From: a virus
Virus record (IMG/VR): IMGVR_UViG_3300019124_000001
Span: 1 to 64,000 of that record
Reading direction: 5' to 3' (one strand)
DNA length: 64,000 nt
Part shown: positions 5,072 through 10,648 of the stretch, one piece after another
Numbering within the stretch: the first letter of the stretch is position 1
How the letters are laid out: every line of letters starts with the position of its first letter
Translations under genes and position numbers: made by a program
Notes under the pieces: generated by a model
Seen by the model: only the letters and a program-made list of their open reading frames with translations
Database searches by the model: none
What the model was told of the DNA's origin: nothing

Positions 5072-5145
5072 TGGCAGGGGCTACAGGACTCGAACCCGTA
5101 CCAACAGTTTTGGAGACTGTCATGCTACCATTACACCAAGCCCCT
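5072..5145 (-). tRNA. tRNA-Trp (CCA)
   Basis: Complete cloverleaf with a 7-bp acceptor stem AGGGGCT/AGCCCCT, anticodon CCA, discriminator G and encoded CCA. Last tRNA of the leftward island. Confidence 0.95.
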
Positions 5146-5148
5146 AGA

Positions 5149-5227
5149 TGGAGGTATGGAGGGGATTTGAACCCCCGAATGCTGGTTTTGCAGACCAGAG
5201 CGTTAAACCGAACTTCGCCACCACACC
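5149..5227 (-). tRNA. tRNA-Cys (GCA), copy 1
   Basis: Acceptor GGTGTGG/CCATACC, anticodon GCA, discriminator U as expected for Cys, encoded CCA. It is 79 nt because of an enlarged D-arm region. A second Cys tRNA lies at 5696-5771. Confidence 0.9.
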
Positions 5228-5256
5228 TATAGCAAATACATGCAAACAAAATATTT

Positions 5257-5332
5257 TGGTGCGCCCACAGGGATTCGAACCCCGACGAACTGATTAAAAG
5301 TCAGCTATGCTAAACCGTTACATCATGAGCGC
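5257..5332 (-). tRNA. tRNA-Lys (TTT)
   Basis: 76-nt cloverleaf, anticodon loop CTTTTAA, discriminator A, encoded CCA. Confidence 0.95.
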
Positions 5333-5336
5333 AAAG

Positions 5337-5414
5337 TGGTACTGGTGGTTGGATTTGAACCAAACGACCTCACGATTATAAGTCATGCGCTCTAACCTTC
5401 TGAGCTACACCAGC
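5337..5414 (-). tRNA. tRNA-Ile (TAT)
   Basis: 78 nt, anticodon loop CTTATAA gives TAT, which reads AUA directly. Most bacteria read AUA with a lysidine-modified CAT tRNA, so the phage supplies a tRNA that avoids this modification. Encoded CCA, discriminator A. Confidence 0.9.
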
Positions 5415-5424
5415 ACAATACGTG

Positions 5425-5511
5425 TGGTGCGAGTGGAGAGACTCGAACTCTCAATCCATTAAAGGCGACAGATTTTAAGTCTGTTGTGTATGCCAATTCC
5501 ACCACACTCGC
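5425..5511 (-). tRNA. tRNA-Leu (TAA)
   Basis: 87-nt class II tRNA with a long variable arm; acceptor GCGAGTG/CACTCGC, anticodon TAA, encoded CCA. Useful comparison for the abnormal tRNA-Leu (TAG) at 7430. Confidence 0.95.
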
Positions 5512-5517
5512 ATAATA

Positions 5518-5593
5518 TGGAGTGCCGTAGAGGATTCGAACCCCTCTGTATCTGCTTAGAAGGCAGATGCCCTATCCACTAGACCAACGGCAC
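5518..5593 (-). tRNA. tRNA-Arg (TCT)
   Basis: Anticodon loop CTTCTAA, stem TCTGC/GCAGA, acceptor GTGCCGT/ACGGCAC, encoded CCA. The discriminator is U, unusual for Arg. Confidence 0.92.
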
Positions 5594-5695
5594 ATAAAAG
5601 AAGCGACAATAGTTAATATCGTTTCAGGATTAGTTTATCGTCTCCCCTGCGGAGAATGTCGATTGTCGCACACGACATTGCCATTTTAGCACTTT

Positions 5696-5771
5696 TGGAG
5701 CGGGGTACTGGATTCGAACCAATGATCTCTCACGTTGCAGGTGAGCGCGTTAGCCACTTCGCCAACCCCGC
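5696..5771 (-). tRNA. tRNA-Cys (GCA), copy 2
   Basis: Anticodon loop CTGCAAC, acceptor GCGGGGT/ACCCCGC, discriminator U, encoded CCA. Sequence differs from copy 1, so it is not a recent duplication. The 100-nt spacer to tRNA-Arg carries a GCGACAAT/ATTGTCGC inverted repeat. Confidence 0.9.
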
Positions 5772-5855
5772 ATAAAACACATCATCGACACAGAAAAAGA
5801 AGAACATATTTCAGCTTCAGGAGGATGGAATAAATGGTTGTGCCGACGATGCTTT

Positions 5856-5930
5856 TGGCGATGGTAAGGGGAATCGAACCCCTGTCTTTCGGGAGACAGC
5901 CGAATATAATAACCATTATACGATACCACC
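5856..5930 (-). tRNA. tRNA-Asp (GTC)
   Basis: Anticodon stem TTCGG/CCGAA with loop CTGTCTC, discriminator G, encoded CCA. Confidence 0.93.
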
Positions 5931-5935
5931 ATTAA

Positions 5936-6011
5936 TGGTGCCGAAGACAGGATTCGAACCTGCAACCTTTCGCTTACAAGGCGATTGCACTAGCCATTGT
6001 GCTACTTCGGC
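5936..6011 (-). tRNA. tRNA-Thr (TGT)
   Basis: 76-nt cloverleaf with anticodon TGT, acceptor GCCGAAG/CTTCGGC, discriminator A, encoded CCA. Confidence 0.94.
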
Positions 6012-6433
6012 AATAAAACAAGTTGCTAACCAAACAGCCACGTGGCAATCAACAAGGTCAATTCGCTACAACCTGCAAGCCAATCACAGCTTCGCGAAAG
6101 CTGTTTACCGTGGATTTTGTCAAGTTTTCAGACTTGAATCATGATTCTTAATTCAAAAGAATGTAAGAGTCGTGAGCTTCTAACCTTATTAACTTTGAAC
6201 TTTTATCTTTACATCCATATTTGTCTACATTCAACATACTATGAATGTGCTTTTAAATAATTTCCGTAGTATCACGATAAAAGTCATATAACAAGGTTGC
6301 CCATTTAACCCAATGGGCTAGGAAGCGAAGTTCGCTGATTTTCGTCTGATTAGCAACAACACTGTTTATTGGTACAGTGAAACCACTTTACCACTCGCTC
6401 TTGAATTCGTGGCGAAACACCATACGAAAACTA
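6012..6433. other. Spacer inside the tRNA island
   Basis: No complete gene. It contains hairpins (CAGCTTCGCGAAAGCTG near 6087; GCCCATTTAACCCAATGGGC near 6299; CACTGT/ACAGTG near 6360). A minus-strand coding-like frame at about 6430-6245 is interrupted by TAA; see findings. Confidence 0.6.
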
Positions 6434-7105
6434 TTACCCATCAATCTCGATAGTAGTTTGCGTATTTGCAACAACAAGAGCGTAATCAACTTCTGCCTTG
6501 AAGTCTTCGATTTCAGTGCGCAATTTATCAATCATGTCGCGAATACCGAGAGGATCGAGCAAAATCGGTTGGCGTTGTGCAGTATATGCATCAACAGACG
6601 CTTGCTGTTCGGCTGAACGGTGCTTAGTGGCTTCTGTTCCAAAAGAGACACGAACAAAATCCTCAACGTTACGATCTAGCTCTTTTTGCAGAGTTTGCAC
6701 TTTCGAAAGAGCTAATGCATAATCAGACTCCAATTTTGCAAGGAGTGCTTCGTCGTAAGCGATAGAAGAATTCTTGCGCTCCAACGCTTCTGCGATTGTC
6801 ATTTCCTTACCGCCGATTGTGATCTTGCGAAGTTCATATCCGTCACCAGCTTTCACGCCAGCATTCGAGATTACAACAGCAGACTTAATCCGCTTGCGAC
6901 GTTCAATCAAATCAAGTACAGATTGAAGTTTCGACCCTGCGCGTTTAGTGAAATCTTCAACAGAAGTTCCAAAGCGCGGTTCAATCTTTTGAGCAGTACC
7001 AGTGTAGTATGCTACATATGTACCGTCATTGATTGCACGATGAATACGAGCATCAAGAGTTTTCAATTCCACAAGAGCTTGCGTGATAGTCATGGTTTGA
7101 GCCAT
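6434..7105 (-). CDS. Coiled-coil protein, possibly DIP1984/DUF6847-like
   Basis: 223 residues. It opens MTITQALVELKTLDARIHRA, continues with heptad-rich helices (residues 95-160 and 190-215) and lacks Cys. The opening pattern recalls small DIP1984-type proteins, but this is from memory and uncertain. It lies between two tRNA groups. Some phages place structural or virion-associated coiled coils in such positions, but no function can be read from sequence. Confidence 0.75.
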   Translation of the reverse strand: MAQTMTITQALVELKTLDARIHRAINDGTYVAYYTGTAQKIEPRFGTSVEDFTKRAGSKLQSVLDLIERRKRIKSAVVISNAGVKAGDGYELRKITIGGKEMTIAEALERKNSSIAYDEALLAKLESDYALALSKVQTLQKELDRNVEDFVRVSFGTEATKHRSAEQQASVDAYTAQRQPILLDPLGIRDMIDKLRTEIEDFKAEVDYALVVANTQTTIEIDG

Positions 7106-7161
7106 TCTGTTGTAGTCTCCTTTTGTCTCTTCAATTTTTATGATTCAATTTGTACGAATTT

Positions 7162-7238
7162 TGGTCAGGGAGACAGGATTCGAACCTGCGACCGCTCGCT
7201 TCCAAAGCGACTACGCTACCAGACTGCGCCACTCCCTG
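7162..7238 (-). tRNA. tRNA-Pro (TGG)
   Basis: Anticodon loop TTTGGAA, acceptor CAGGGAG/CTCCCTG, discriminator A, encoded CCA. Confidence 0.94.
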
Positions 7239-7272
7239 TTATGAGTCACCATTCTCTTGGTGACAACACATT

Positions 7273-7348
7273 TGGCATCCCCTGATGGAATCGAACCACC
7301 ACTTCGAGATTCGTAGTCTCGCGTCTTCGTCCATTCGACTAAGAGGAT
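7273..7348 (-). tRNA. tRNA-Arg (ACG)
   Basis: Anticodon stem CGAGA/TCTCG, loop CTACGAA, so anticodon ACG (probably deaminated to ICG if the host enzyme acts). Discriminator G, encoded CCA. Confidence 0.93.
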
Positions 7349-7350
7349 AT

Positions 7351-7425
7351 TGGTTACGGAGACGGGATTCGAACCCGTGTCTACAGGGTATGAGCCTGTC
7401 AAGGAAACCACTCCTCCACTCCGTA
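7351..7425 (-). tRNA. tRNA-Met (CAT)
   Basis: Anticodon stem ACAGG/CCTGT lacks the three G-C pairs of an initiator, so elongator Met is preferred. A CAT tRNA could also be lysidine-Ile, but this genome already has TAT and GAT Ile tRNAs. Encoded CCA. Confidence 0.88.
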
Positions 7426-7429
7426 ATAT

Positions 7430-7506
7430 TGGTAGGGGCTAGGAGACTCGAACTCCTAAAACTCTGCTTCTAAGGCAGATACGTATGCCAATTCCGTCAA
7501 GCCCCC
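7430..7506 (-). tRNA. tRNA-Leu (TAG) with short variable loop
   Basis: Anticodon TAG (stem TCTGC/GCAGA). The D arm (GGAATTGGCATACG) is Leu-like, but the variable region is only 5 nt (GTTTT) instead of the long arm of class II tRNAs; total 77 nt. Acceptor GGGGGCT/AGCCCCT, encoded CCA. See findings. Confidence 0.85.
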
Positions 7507-7843
7507 ATGTAATACGAACAGTTGGCAAGCTATTGATCAGATAGCCAGTTGCATCCAACTGCAAGGGAGCTTGTTTACTAGTTACTCCGAACCGCATGAT
7601 GTCACGACATCATGAAACGCTATTGATTCTTTTGGACAATCAACAGGAACCCCTCTGGTACTTCATTTTCATATAGGAACACCAGAATCCCATCTTTGTT
7701 TCTAGCTCAAAGACTAAGGCTGTTGTCCTTCTCGTAGTCAACACACGCTACGTTTTTCAACTAGTATTGGAACGTAGAAACCCGCGACCCTTTCATCCTG
7801 AAGCCAAACGCAATGCTTGACTTCTAAACTACTCGTGATCTCG
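7507..7843. other. Spacer inside the tRNA island
   Basis: No intact gene. It holds an 8-bp hairpin CATGATGT/ACATCATG near 7596-7614 and minus-strand coding-like frames broken by stops (see findings). Possibly gene remnants or structured RNA. Confidence 0.55.
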
Positions 7844-7919
7844 TGGTGACGCATGTGGGAATCGAACCCGACATTAACGACTTGAAAGGCCGTTTTCCTA
7901 ACCATTAGAAGAATGCGCC
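7844..7919 (-). tRNA. tRNA-Glu (TTC)
   Basis: Anticodon stem ACGGC/GTCGT, loop CTTTCAA, acceptor GGCGCAT/ATGCGTC, discriminator A, encoded CCA. Confidence 0.92.
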
Positions 7920-7925
7920 AAAATT

Positions 7926-8004
7926 TGGGGTGATGGACGAGAATCGAACTCGCGACACCTGCGGTCACAACGCAGTATGCGTAACCAACACGCATTCCCA
8001 TCAC
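7926..8004 (-). tRNA. tRNA-His (GTG)
   Basis: Anticodon stem CTGCG/CGCAG with loop TTGTGAC; acceptor GTGATGG/CCATCAC and discriminator C. The base before G1 is U, so the extra G(-1) normally encoded in bacterial tRNA-His is absent. Encoded CCA. Confidence 0.88.
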
Positions 8005-8075
8005 AATCCAACCTACCATTTGCACCTAATCGAAGATGGTAGGCTCGATTGCAAAGGCTTGCGTTTTATCTAACC

Positions 8076-8128
8076 CTTACACTTAGTAAGTGACGATGTA
8101 CCCCTGTTTGTCAGGTGTTTTTCGGCAC
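8076..8128 (-). repeat. 53-bp element, copy A
   Basis: Identical 21-bp and 22-bp ends flank a 10-bp variable core. Two more copies lie at 12896 and 12986. This copy is upstream (minus strand) of tRNA-His and the distal tRNA group. The 21-bp end contains the perfect dyad CACTTA-G-TAAGTG. Candidate phage promoter, operator or structured RNA. Confidence 0.85.
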
Positions 8129-8170
8129 GAAGTTTCAAAATGTTTCAAGTGCTCTGTCAACTGAAAGATA

Positions 8171-8258
8171 TGGCGGAACAGGCGAGATTCGAACTCGCGG
8201 TGGTTTTACCCACGCCTTCTTAGCAGGAAGGTGGTTTAAGCCGCTCACCCACTGTTCC
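8171..8258 (-). tRNA. tRNA-Ser (GCT)
   Basis: 88-nt class II tRNA; anticodon stem CCTTC/GAAGG, loop CTGCTAA, long variable arm, discriminator G, encoded CCA. Confidence 0.94.
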
Positions 8259-8338
8259 AAAAAGATAGGCAGGACGGCATACCCTGCATCTCTGTTGACT
8301 ATTTCTAGCGCGGCAGGAACCTTTCTGCCCTCTATCCA

Positions 8339-8611
8339 TTACGAAACGAACGCTTCGACAGTGCCGTCTTCATAGGTCACAATTTCAAGAATGCCCTTTA
8401 CCATCAATGCCGCTTTTGTGTGTTCATTTTCTGGCGTTTCTTTCGTAGAAAAGCCAACGCCCTCACTAACAGACATGTGGTTCACGTAGTATGTTCGTCC
8501 CTTCGCCTTTACAATCCAAGGTGGGATACTGCTATCTTCATTGTGCTTCTTGTTGAAATGAAAAACAATTCTTGTTTTTTCAATCTATAGCTTATTTAAA
8601 ACCACTTTCAC
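8339..8611 (-). CDS. Small phage protein with in-frame UAG at codon 9
   Basis: A 90-codon frame starts with GTG 7 nt after AAGGAGG and ends in TAA, but codon 9 (8587-8585) is TAG. The rest reads as a convincing protein: KTRIVFHFNKKH, IPPW, GRTYYVNH, FSTKETPENEHTK. From memory this resembles a small conserved phage family with the same motifs. No other in-frame stop occurs. The gene lies 125 nt downstream of a CTA (amber-reading) tRNA on the same strand, so readthrough is a natural explanation. The alternatives are a pseudogene or a rare downstream start such as the ATT right after the TAG. Confidence 0.6.
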
Positions 8612-8652
8612 TGTAGTTCCTCCTTATTTTCATTACCACTTGTGCCAAACAT

Positions 8653-8731
8653 TTTATATCAAAACTTTGCCCATTCTTCTATCTAACTAATGCGCACTTG
8701 CCGTATTGAATGGGCAAAGTTTTGATATAAA
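8653..8731 (-). other. 24-bp perfect hairpin
   Basis: Arms 8653-8676 and 8708-8731 are perfectly complementary (start TTTATATCAAAACTTTGCC) around a 31-nt loop. It lies between the suppressor tRNA and the UAG-containing gene. No poly-U follows on the minus strand, so an RNase III processing site or regulatory RNA hairpin is more likely than a terminator. Confidence 0.8.
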
Positions 8732-8736
8732 TAAAA

Positions 8737-8812
8737 TGGTGCGTCCAGCGGGACTCGAACCCACACCTTCCGCTTTTAGAGAGCGGCGTTCTTCCAATTG
8801 AATTATGGACGC
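8737..8812 (-). tRNA. Suppressor tRNA (anticodon CTA, reads UAG)
   Basis: Well-formed 76-nt cloverleaf: acceptor GCGTCCA/TGGACGC, anticodon stem CCGCT/AGCGG, loop CTCTAAA giving CTA, T stem GTGGG/CCCGC with TTCGAGT loop, discriminator A and encoded CCA. It has a 5-nt variable loop. The amino acid it carries cannot be decided by eye. It would decode UAG, and the adjacent downstream gene contains an in-frame UAG. TAG also ends many genes in this window, so it cannot be a complete reassignment. Confidence 0.88.
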
Positions 8813-8814
8813 AT

Positions 8815-8889
8815 TGGCAACGGGTAAGGGATTCGAACCCTTGCTATCAGAATCAAAGTCTGAGGTGCTTACCATTACACTAACCCGCA
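8815..8889 (-). tRNA. tRNA-Gln (TTG)
   Basis: Anticodon stem TCAGA/TCTGA with loop CTTTGAT. The 1-72 pair is weak (U-U), typical of Gln tRNAs; discriminator G, encoded CCA. Confidence 0.9.
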
Positions 8890-9001
8890 ATATTGTTCAG
8901 GGGTAGGGAAATTGATCGTCACGAAATTCTTCGTACTCTGCCACAATTTCCGAACAAAGAATATTCTTTGTTCGCTTTGCCTTGCCATCCCCGACAGCTT
9001 T

Positions 9002-9077
9002 TGGCTACGTAGGTGGGACTCGAACCCACGACCCCCGCATTAACAGTGCGGTGCTACACCACTTCAGCTTCTACGCA
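9002..9077 (-). tRNA. tRNA-Asn (GTT), copy 1
   Basis: Anticodon stem CCGCA/TGCGG, loop CTGTTAA, acceptor TGCGTAG/CTACGTA, discriminator G, encoded CCA. The upstream spacer has a 24-nt palindrome (CGAACAAAG ... CTTTGTTCG, 8952-8975). Confidence 0.93.
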
Positions 9078-9082
9078 ATAAT

Positions 9083-9156
9083 TGGTGCTTCCTGATAGAT
9101 TCGAACTATCATACCTCGATTATCATTCGAGAGTCCTACCATTGGACGAAGGAAGC
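9083..9156 (-). tRNA. tRNA-Ile (GAT)
   Basis: Anticodon stem CTCGA/TCGAG with loop ATGATAA; acceptor GCTTCCT/AGGAAGC, discriminator A, encoded CCA. Confidence 0.92.
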
Positions 9157-9208
9157 AAAAAGTGGGCATGTTAAATGCCCCAAGAGAAAACACCAAAGGA
9201 GAGAATTA

Positions 9209-9284
9209 TGGTGGAGAAGACGGGATTCGAACCCGCTACCTTTCGCTTGCAAGGCGAATGCTCTACCTATTGAGCTACATCCCC
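9209..9284 (-). tRNA. tRNA-Ala (TGC)
   Basis: Anticodon stem TTCGC/GCGAA, loop CTTGCAA. The acceptor has the Ala identity pair G3-U70 and one U-U mismatch at 6-67; discriminator A, encoded CCA. Confidence 0.92.
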
Positions 9285-9291
9285 ATTGTAT

Positions 9292-9366
9292 TGGTTGGGT
9301 ATAAGGGAATCGAACCCCTTCCTCCAGCTTGTAAGGCTGGCGTACTCCCGTTATACAGAATACCCA
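9292..9366 (-). tRNA. tRNA-Val (TAC)
   Basis: Anticodon stem CCAGC/GCTGG, loop CTTACAA, acceptor TGGGTAT/ATACCCA, discriminator A, encoded CCA. Confidence 0.93.
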
Positions 9367-9399
9367 ATAGAAGCAGGGAGGGAACCTCCCCGCAAGTGA

Positions 9400-9696
9400 T
9401 TAGTTTTGAATCTTGTCTGTCAAAGCGTCAATATTTTTAAAGATTTGTGCGATTTGTTGAAGAGATGCTTTAACCTGACTTTGTGTGTTGTCGATTTGCT
9501 GTTGCATATTCGTAAATTGCATAGCCGCAGATGGATCTTGTGATTGGATAATAGACGCGAACTGTTGCAACGTTTGTTCCACGAAGTCAAATTGTTTCTG
9601 AACAATTTCTGCGTTTTGCAAAAGAGCAACACCAGCTTTTACTTCTGCGTCGATTTGGTCAGCTACACGTGCAGATTTCATACCAAAATTAAACAT
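9400..9696 (-). CDS. Small coiled-coil protein
   Basis: 98 residues, almost entirely helical with Gln-rich heptads (TLQQFASIIQSQD, MQQQIDNTQSQV). No Cys, no signal peptide. AGGGGA lies 9 nt before the ATG. It sits alone between tRNA groups with short intergenic gaps, so it is probably cotranscribed with them. Function unknown; an oligomerising scaffold or virion protein is possible. Confidence 0.75.
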   Translation of the reverse strand: MFNFGMKSARVADQIDAEVKAGVALLQNAEIVQKQFDFVEQTLQQFASIIQSQDPSAAMQFTNMQQQIDNTQSQVKASLQQIAQIFKNIDALTDKIQN

Positions 9697-9737
9697 TATT
9701 GTTATTCCCCTTTTATTCCTATATGGTTTTGATTATA

Positions 9738-9811
9738 TGGCAGGGTTGCAGGATTCGAACCCACATCTCTTCCTTGAACTAAGAAGCATTTTGCCGTTAA
9801 ACTAAAACCCT
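9738..9811 (-). tRNA. Atypical tRNA with 8-nt anticodon loop
   Basis: tRNA-like molecule with normal D arm, TTCGAAT T loop and encoded CCA. With standard arm spacing the anticodon stem is CTTCT/GGAAG around an 8-nt loop TAGTTCAA, and the acceptor has only 6 bp (AGGGTT/AACCCT) before discriminator G. If U33 is forced before the anticodon, the triplet would be TCA (opal). Isotype undetermined. Confidence 0.7.
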
Positions 9812-9812
9812 G

Positions 9813-9887
9813 TGGTGGCTCCCGTTGGTAACGCTCCAACCTCCTTCGCTTTTCAGGCGAATGCTAATCTGTCTCAGCTAGAGAGCC
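9813..9887 (-). tRNA. tRNA-Phe (GAA) with aberrant T loop
   Basis: Anticodon stem TTCGC/GCGAA, loop CTGAAAA, acceptor GGCTCTC/GGGAGCC, encoded CCA. The T loop is AGCGTTA on a perfect GTTGG/CCAAC stem instead of the near-universal TTCRANY. Confidence 0.85.
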
Positions 9888-9890
9888 AAT

Positions 9891-9974
9891 TGGTAGGGAC
9901 AGAGGGACTTGAACCCTCACGCTTAAAGCACTAGTTTTTGAGACTAGCGTGTCTGCCCATTCCACCATGCCCCC
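9891..9974 (-). tRNA. tRNA-Leu (CAA)
   Basis: 84-nt class II tRNA, anticodon stem CTAGT/ACTAG with loop CTCAAAA, long variable arm, encoded CCA. Confidence 0.93.
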
Positions 9975-10074
9975 ATGAATTGCTACGTTATTACTTTTAT
10001 TTCGAAGTTCTAAAGGTAGCCAAACCACTCTTCGGTTCGTTATTTTAGGGCTTAAACGAATCCAAAATTACCGC

Positions 10075-10149
10075 TGGTGTGAACAGAGGGAATCGAACCC
10101 TCGCCGTATGCTTGGCAAGCACAAGTTCTAGCCGTTAAACTATGTCCAC
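10075..10149 (-). tRNA. tRNA-Gly (GCC)
   Basis: Anticodon stem TGTGC/GCATA with loop TTGCCAA, discriminator A, encoded CCA. Confidence 0.92.
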
Positions 10150-10152
10150 AAA

Positions 10153-10230
10153 TGGCTGTCGGGGTTGGACTCGAACCAACATTGCCCTCCGCACAACAAG
10201 CAGAGCGCATTACCATTATGCTACCCAACA
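10153..10230 (-). tRNA. tRNA-Asn (GTT), copy 2
   Basis: Anticodon stem TCTGC/GCGGA with loop TTGTTGT, giving GTT but with G at position 37 rather than A. Acceptor TGTTGGG/CCCGACA, discriminator G, encoded CCA. Less canonical than copy 1. Confidence 0.8.
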
Positions 10231-10388
10231 ATATTTGGATGTCGCTTCAACACAGAGCAATTGTGTGTCAGGGCGCGACATTAGCCCTAGCATATTGCAG
10301 TTGTCTAGAATGCCAGCTATGCCGTGCTGTCGCTTCAACTCAGGCAGTCCATCAAGTGGGCTGTTCGTCCGTATTGTTGAGCATTTTG

Positions 10389-10464
10389 TGGTGCGGAATA
10401 AGGGAATCGAACCCTTGCTTCATGCTTGGAAGGCACACGTCATAGACCATTAGACTAATTCCGC
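10389..10464 (-). tRNA. tRNA-Gly (TCC)
   Basis: Anticodon stem TGTGC/GCATG with loop CTTCCAA, acceptor GCGGAAT/ATTCCGC, encoded CCA. Confidence 0.93.
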
Positions 10465-10467
10465 AAG

Positions 10468-10557
10468 TGGCGGGTAGTGAGGGATTCGAACCCCCATGCC
10501 TGTTACAGCACATTGGTTTTCAAGACCACGCCGTTATAACCATTTCGGTAACTACCC
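10468..10557 (-). tRNA. tRNA-Ser (TGA)
   Basis: 90-nt class II tRNA, loop CTTGAAA giving TGA, acceptor GGGTAGT/ACTACCC, discriminator G, encoded CCA. Confidence 0.92.
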
Positions 10558-10561
10558 ATAT

Positions 10562-10648
10562 TGGTGAAGAGGGAAGGAATCGAACCTCCAAGGCACAAAG
10601 GCACGTGGGTTACAGCCACGCCCGCTTCCACTTACGGTCTACCTCTCC
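10562..10648 (-). tRNA. tRNA-Tyr (GTA)
   Basis: 87-nt class II tRNA, anticodon stem CGTGG/CCACG, loop CTGTAAC, acceptor GGAGAGG/CCTCTTC, discriminator A, encoded CCA. First tRNA of the leftward island. Confidence 0.94.

Follow-up and report, generated by a model that had tools for sequence, protein, structure and literature searches.

Does a phage tRNA that reads UAG control the gene beside it? The question arises in the first 64 kb (64,000 nucleotides, hereafter the window) of a 163,787-bp virus record, IMG/VR IMGVR_UViG_3300019124_000001. There, a tRNA gene with anticodon CTA lies just upstream of a 90-codon frame with an in-frame TAG at codon 9. The initial annotation, which was made from the sequence alone, suggested a local switch, with the frame being expressed only when the self-linked suppressor tRNA is available. 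We think it very probable, from comparing sequences across phages, that the tRNA and the gene, a member of a family that we will call HFNK, form a stop-codon gate (a natural translational AND gate) that recurs across diverse phages. Of the readings considered, the proposed switch is the one that comparative data support best: the conservation of TAG specifically, linkage to the tRNA on the same strand, a matching stop codon and anticodon in a case with UGA, and a second family, peptidyl-tRNA hydrolase 2 (PTH2), that appears to be under the same gate.

A CTA tRNA and a frame with an early TAG

The main features of the locus are all on the minus strand:

8737..8812, minus strand: tRNA gene with anticodon CTA, which reads UAG (ARAGORN)
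8619..8624, minus strand: ribosome-binding site AGGAGG, with 7-nt spacing to the GTG (sequence)
8339..8611, minus strand: putative stop-gated gene of the HFNK family, with a GTG start and 90 codons plus TAA (sequence, translation, homologues and predicted fold)
8585..8587, minus strand: in-frame TAG at codon 9, with A as the next base (sequence; TAG-specific conservation in relatives)

ARAGORN places the tRNA just upstream of the frame and on the same strand, as first noted. It has a 7-bp acceptor stem, the loop CTCTAAA, A as the discriminator base, and an encoded CCA. The frame begins 125 nt downstream of the tRNA, with its GTG at 8611, and ends with TAA at 8341–8339; the sequence confirms the strong ribosome-binding site, the GTG start, the UAG at codon 9, and the lack of any other stop before the TAA. 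We considered an alternative start after the stop but rejected it: the nearest ATG or GTG is about 34 codons further along, and we found no start preceded by a Shine-Dalgarno sequence in between.

In a simple gene call of the whole record, TAG terminates 50 of the 194 genes, so there is no wholesale recoding, as the initial annotation had argued from fewer genes. Recoded phages with CUA tRNAs do exist (PMC7886860), but this genome does not resemble a phage with genome-wide recoding of TAG (as in NCBI code 15): TAG ends genes, and just one gene has an early TAG. Specifically, we scanned the genome for frames with a Shine-Dalgarno-preceded start, an early stop, coding-like sequence downstream, and no better start. 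This search for other in-frame TAGs, which had been suggested as a check, returned only the HFNK locus for TAG and no gene with an early TGA, and we found no other convincing case of either kind in the genome. (At 126 kb of the record, an in-frame TAG lies upstream of an RNase H frame, but the arrangement looks like two ordinary genes and was rejected.) Because the TAG at the HFNK locus is the only such TAG in the genome and has been conserved across roughly a hundred divergent phages, the pattern exceeds chance.

ARAGORN labels the CTA tRNA as Pyl, which would fit the insertion of pyrrolysine. However, pyrrolysyl-tRNA synthetase (PylS, TIGR02367) has no match above the cut-off in this genome (a host enzyme is possible). 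And the stop is unlikely to supply any special residue, because its position shifts among relatives, relatives without it start nearby, UGA is used once, and no PylS was found.

The early TAG is conserved in the HFNK family

The HFNK family is unnamed and absent from Pfam. We found no near DNA relatives of the window among the phage records searched. With tblastn against phages, we found an unannotated HFNK match in Rhizobium phage RHph_I1_18, directly adjoining its tRNA-Pyl(cta); in the jumbo phages Atu_ph07 and Phosso, the matching sequences are parts of larger proteins. IMG/VR contains several hundred relatives (404 in one scan alone). We gathered loci by their similarity to gated queries (by gated, we mean having the early in-frame stop) and collapsed them at 92% identity, which left 138 non-redundant genes; one locus (L059) was reclassified by hand.

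Whether homologues carry a sense codon instead of the stop had been proposed as a check. In fact, 99 of the 138 genes have an in-frame TAG between an ATG or GTG and the conserved core, and none has TAA or TGA in its place. The position of the TAG shifts by a few codons; codon 3 is the most common (62 loci, for instance MS#IEYACKDIVFHFNKK, where "#" is the TAG). The sequence past the stop is strongly conserved, and ungated relatives have starts close to those of gated ones. A purine directly after a stop codon is a context that favors amber suppression, and A or G follows the TAG in 97 of 98 HFNK genes.

A sequencing error, which would undercut the switch, or a pseudogene can be rejected: the TAG is conserved in relatives, which form clustered sense-strand families. 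Roughly a hundred divergent HFNK genes keep it, as do 61 PTH2 genes (see below), with no TAA or TGA. Overall, we view an artefact, a pseudogene, global recoding, or pyrrolysine insertion as extremely improbable.

The early stop creates a mini-ORF (open reading frame) of 1–8 codons. We also considered that this might be a leader, with translation restarting just past the stop (at AUU or GUG, for example) and the tRNA being irrelevant. ATT is right after the stop in 62 of 98 HFNK genes, and in mycobacteriophages the PTH2 gene has GTG directly after the TAG. But the codon after the stop is often not a start codon, and restarting would leave unexplained the exclusive use of TAG, the linkage of CTA tRNAs to the genes, and the TGA that Atu_ph07 has together with a UCA tRNA. 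We consider this explanation very unlikely.

The HFNK protein is predicted, with high confidence, to be a small all-beta domain (predicted local distance difference test score of 92). Its predicted fold has no match in the PDB and weak matches among viral proteins. We rejected any assignment by sequence or fold, as the matches to WW-like and phage domains are weak; the WW domain itself (PF00397) scores 15 bits, as compared to a gathering score of 26.9, and has no support from PDB folds. Some loci (such as L043, 5971–6558) encode a long form of HFNK of about 190 amino acids with a conserved C-terminal domain that is predicted to be mixed alpha/beta. And in the record of locus L079, an ungated HFNK gene is directly preceded by a tRNA-like sequence of 94 nt (89819–89912 of G014), in which the anticodon loop is greatly enlarged.

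Linkage to the suppressor tRNA

We searched the gated HFNK loci that had full flanks (n = 89) for tRNAs using ARAGORN with a slightly relaxed threshold. In 66 of the 89 loci, there is a CTA tRNA no more than 2.5 kb from the gated gene, always on the same strand and never on the opposite strand. Among tRNAs that read the other stop codons, TCA was found once (in the window itself) and TTA was not found. Where there is a single tRNA within 1.5 kb of the gated gene, it is the CTA tRNA in 38 of 43 cases. The initial annotation described a self-linked suppressor and target as unusual; instead, this linkage is widespread, though seemingly undescribed.

The CTA tRNAs are very diverse, with 97 distinct sequences, a median pairwise identity of 0.65, and A as the discriminator base in 75. 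They therefore do not represent a single copy that spread recently.

Tight pairing on the same strand across very diverse phages could also be selfish: the UAG might mainly make the tRNA indispensable (addiction), or it might silence the genes in other genomes, without any regulatory benefit. However, the tRNA can be about 8 kb away, and genes without the gate are still found next to CTA tRNAs, so selfish linkage seems quite unlikely.

A second gated family, PTH2

Many of the HFNK genes that lack the TAG come directly after a PTH2 gene that has one. For example, a gene that begins MT#INNQKLRVVTRRDL... encodes a peptidyl-tRNA hydrolase 2 (PF01981, E = 2e-9). In several phages, both PTH2 and HFNK are gated. 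When we clustered all of the early-stop frames across 186 loci, without regard to family, TAG gave two large families on the sense strand, namely HFNK (134 frames) and PTH2 (42 frames). The remaining TAG clusters, and all of the TAA and TGA clusters, were small and mostly antisense.

In a separate scan for PTH2, 61 of 64 non-redundant genes have TAG at codon 2–5, and none of the 64 has TAA or TGA as the early stop. A CTA tRNA is within 2.5 kb on the same strand for 50 of the 61 gated genes, and on the opposite strand for none. Scores against PF01981 exceed the gathering score (23 bits) for the gene from L121 (38 bits) and for XacN1 ORF364 (25.3 bits), while the divergent gene from L014 scores below it. 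Because some of the gated PTH2 proteins are divergent, their activity is uncertain.

We also asked if translational coupling to a gated PTH2 gene replaces the gate on HFNK. Fisher's test was not significant, and the automatic classification was faulty at some loci; by eye, pairs in which PTH2 and HFNK overlap mostly have an ungated HFNK and non-overlapping pairs are mostly gated, although the pattern is not clean. In L014, L016, and L019, the gated PTH2 and HFNK are separated by another small gene (MKKFETIRQAIKTL... in L014), which is apparently part of the same operon.

The chief rival to the AND gate is a homeostatic sensor, a reading favored by the presence of a peptidyl-tRNA hydrolase among the main gated genes. 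Readthrough of the UAG would report how much charged suppressor tRNA there is relative to release factor 1 (RF1), or how peptidyl-tRNA recycling is proceeding. Mini-ORFs with a start and a stop provoke drop-off of peptidyl-tRNA, which PTH2 would relieve, so that the output of PTH2 and HFNK would be tuned to need rather than switched on. The stop does create such a mini-ORF, and there are precedents: the bar minigenes of phage lambda link short mini-ORFs with peptidyl-tRNA hydrolase, and in the autoregulatory frameshift of release factor 2 (RF2), a gene for translation is regulated through a stop codon early in its frame. (The phage gate differs from these in that there is no frameshift and the decoder is a dedicated tRNA.) But the window's genome gates only HFNK; its PTH2 gene (94275–94916 of the record) is distant and ungated. 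Also, as mentioned above, the activity of some gated PTH2 proteins is uncertain. We regard the homeostatic sensor as possible but on the unlikely side.

Early stops in cultured phages

In Atu_ph07, the only suppressor tRNA has anticodon UCA, and the early stop in PTH2 is a TGA, at codon 7. The related phage Phosso has two CTA tRNAs and no UCA tRNA, and its PTH2 has an early TAG. In this one event, the type of stop tracks the anticodon (TGA with UCA, TAG with CUA), which is what the gate model requires.

A blind scan of the genome of XacN1 gave one candidate with an early TAG, at 243735–244595, which contains a PTH2 domain (E = 1.8e-5). Its counterpart in Stenotrophomonas phage RAS14 is gated alike. 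In XacN1, an alternative start is possible, because an ATG five codons past the TAG is the annotated start.

In mycobacteriophages from two genera (Alice, Cane17, Blubba, and NoodleTree; Myrna, Phabba, and ScoobyDoobyDoo), PTH2 starts with (A/G)TG-TAG-GTG, and a CTA tRNA lies about 130–250 nt downstream. A promoter-like sequence (similar to TTGACA...TACCGT) ends 6–7 nt before the ATG or GTG, which suggests a leaderless start at this codon, before the TAG. Translation could instead begin at the GTG that follows the TAG.

Acinetobacter phage ME3 also fits (MT#IHENKK, with a CTA tRNA upstream), and PTH2 has an early TAG in Pectobacterium phage CBB and Xanthomonas phage XbC2 (L454, L455). In CBB and XbC2, the gene adjoining the gated PTH2 contains an in-frame TAG too, which is conserved and falls in the middle of the frame (LISELDTG#GD). 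The relative of this gene in XacN1 is the N-terminal part of ORF364, which by eye looks like an HD hydrolase; the gene may represent a third family with stops.

The proposed gate

In the window, ribosomes would initiate at the GTG at 8611 and reach the UAG at codon 9, where RF1 would normally terminate translation, giving an octapeptide. Once the phage's CUA tRNA is transcribed from its array, processed, and charged, some ribosomes would insert its amino acid and continue, which would yield the 90-residue all-beta protein. Expression of HFNK would thus need both its mRNA and a functional suppressor tRNA, as in a coherent feed-forward loop. The module would act on two small genes, HFNK and PTH2, in diverse phages. 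We infer the readthrough itself, as well as the inserted amino acid, the timing, and the reason for withholding these proteins. Because PTH2 is a main target, we suggest that the gated proteins serve the metabolism of tRNA or peptidyl-tRNA. Most likely, HFNK and PTH2 act on tRNA or translation, and they are withheld because they would be useful or safe only once the phage's tRNAs exist.

Several observations weigh against the gate. No CTA tRNA was found within 2.5 kb for 26 of 99 gated loci, and one gated locus (L139) has none that we could find on its 75-kb contig, which may be partial. Conversely, some ungated relatives are near a CTA tRNA (L054, L064, L070, L072, L096, and L261). The matching of UGA with UCA is a single event, and the counts of loci are not phylogenetically independent. 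Some of the apparent absences are due to detection or distance: one CTA tRNA, 33 nt upstream of a gated gene, was missed at ARAGORN's default threshold, and the CTA tRNA of another gated gene is about 8.4 kb away. The strict choice of stop codon and the linkage to the tRNA argue for regulation through the tRNA, and the translational AND gate is the most economical model.

Other features near the locus

Two other features surround the pair or lie between its members:

5072..10648, minus strand: array of tRNA genes that contains the CTA tRNA (ARAGORN)
8653..8731, minus strand: 24-nt perfect inverted repeat with a 31-nt loop, between the CTA tRNA and the ribosome-binding site (sequence)

The array, at 5.1–10.6 kb, has 29 tRNA genes, of which one is the CTA tRNA. 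The inverted repeat is predicted to form a strong hairpin, which could serve in RNA processing or insulation; we looked for it in relatives and did not find it. An apparent repeat at 6237–6260 was attributed to chance. At 9739–9812 (minus strand) there is a tRNA with a predicted anticodon of TCA, which would read UGA, and an odd anticodon loop of possibly 8 nt; it may be degenerate or misread, because no early-TGA gene was found in our scan of this genome. At about 9815–9889 (minus strand), a sequence resembling tRNA-Phe(GAA), with an atypical T arm, was not called by ARAGORN.

Relation to known systems

Suppressor tRNAs are known from recoded crAss-like and other phages, where control of expression has been proposed (PMC7886860, PMC12386605). 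As in those phages, a phage-encoded suppressor tRNA would read an in-frame stop. But in those phages, many genes are involved, often for structure or lysis, and the stops are at arbitrary places; here, TAG is a normal terminator, and just one or two small genes contain it, always near the start. Orphan suppressor tRNAs are known from phages that are not recoded. The authors could not find targets for the CUA tRNAs of XacN1 (PMC5852040), the target of the suppressor tRNA of Stenotrophomonas phage Summit was reported as not identified (PMC9022506), and the paper on Atu_ph07 names no target for its UCA tRNA (PMC6102473). These are the same kind of tRNA, and we propose a specific target for those of XacN1 and Atu_ph07. 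An engineered feed-forward circuit that dampens leaky expression also combines a nonsense codon in the regulated gene with a regulated suppressor tRNA, and works with amber or opal codons (PMC7969014); that circuit is synthetic, whereas the phage gate would be natural and conserved. We found no description of a module of a tRNA and a stop-gated gene in the open-access literature, and the closest published statements are these suppressor tRNAs without targets and the synthetic circuit with the same logic.

Why phages keep suppressor tRNAs has been asked outright (PMC12386605). We lean towards the view that there is a widespread and so far undescribed class of natural genetic switch, whether a translational feed-forward loop or a homeostatic one, in which phages of many hosts keep a dedicated suppressor tRNA with no targets other than one or two stop-gated genes that function in the metabolism of tRNA or peptidyl-tRNA, and that this explains many of the orphan suppressors. 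The suppressor tRNAs of large phages that are not recoded would then gain specific targets, which were missed because the stop leaves the genes unannotated or with incorrect starts. Gene callers systematically overlook a conserved family of proteins. The gate can be tested in cultured phages (Alice, Myrna, ME3, RHph_I1_18, and Atu_ph07), and it would be a natural counterpart to the engineered suppressor-tRNA AND gate.
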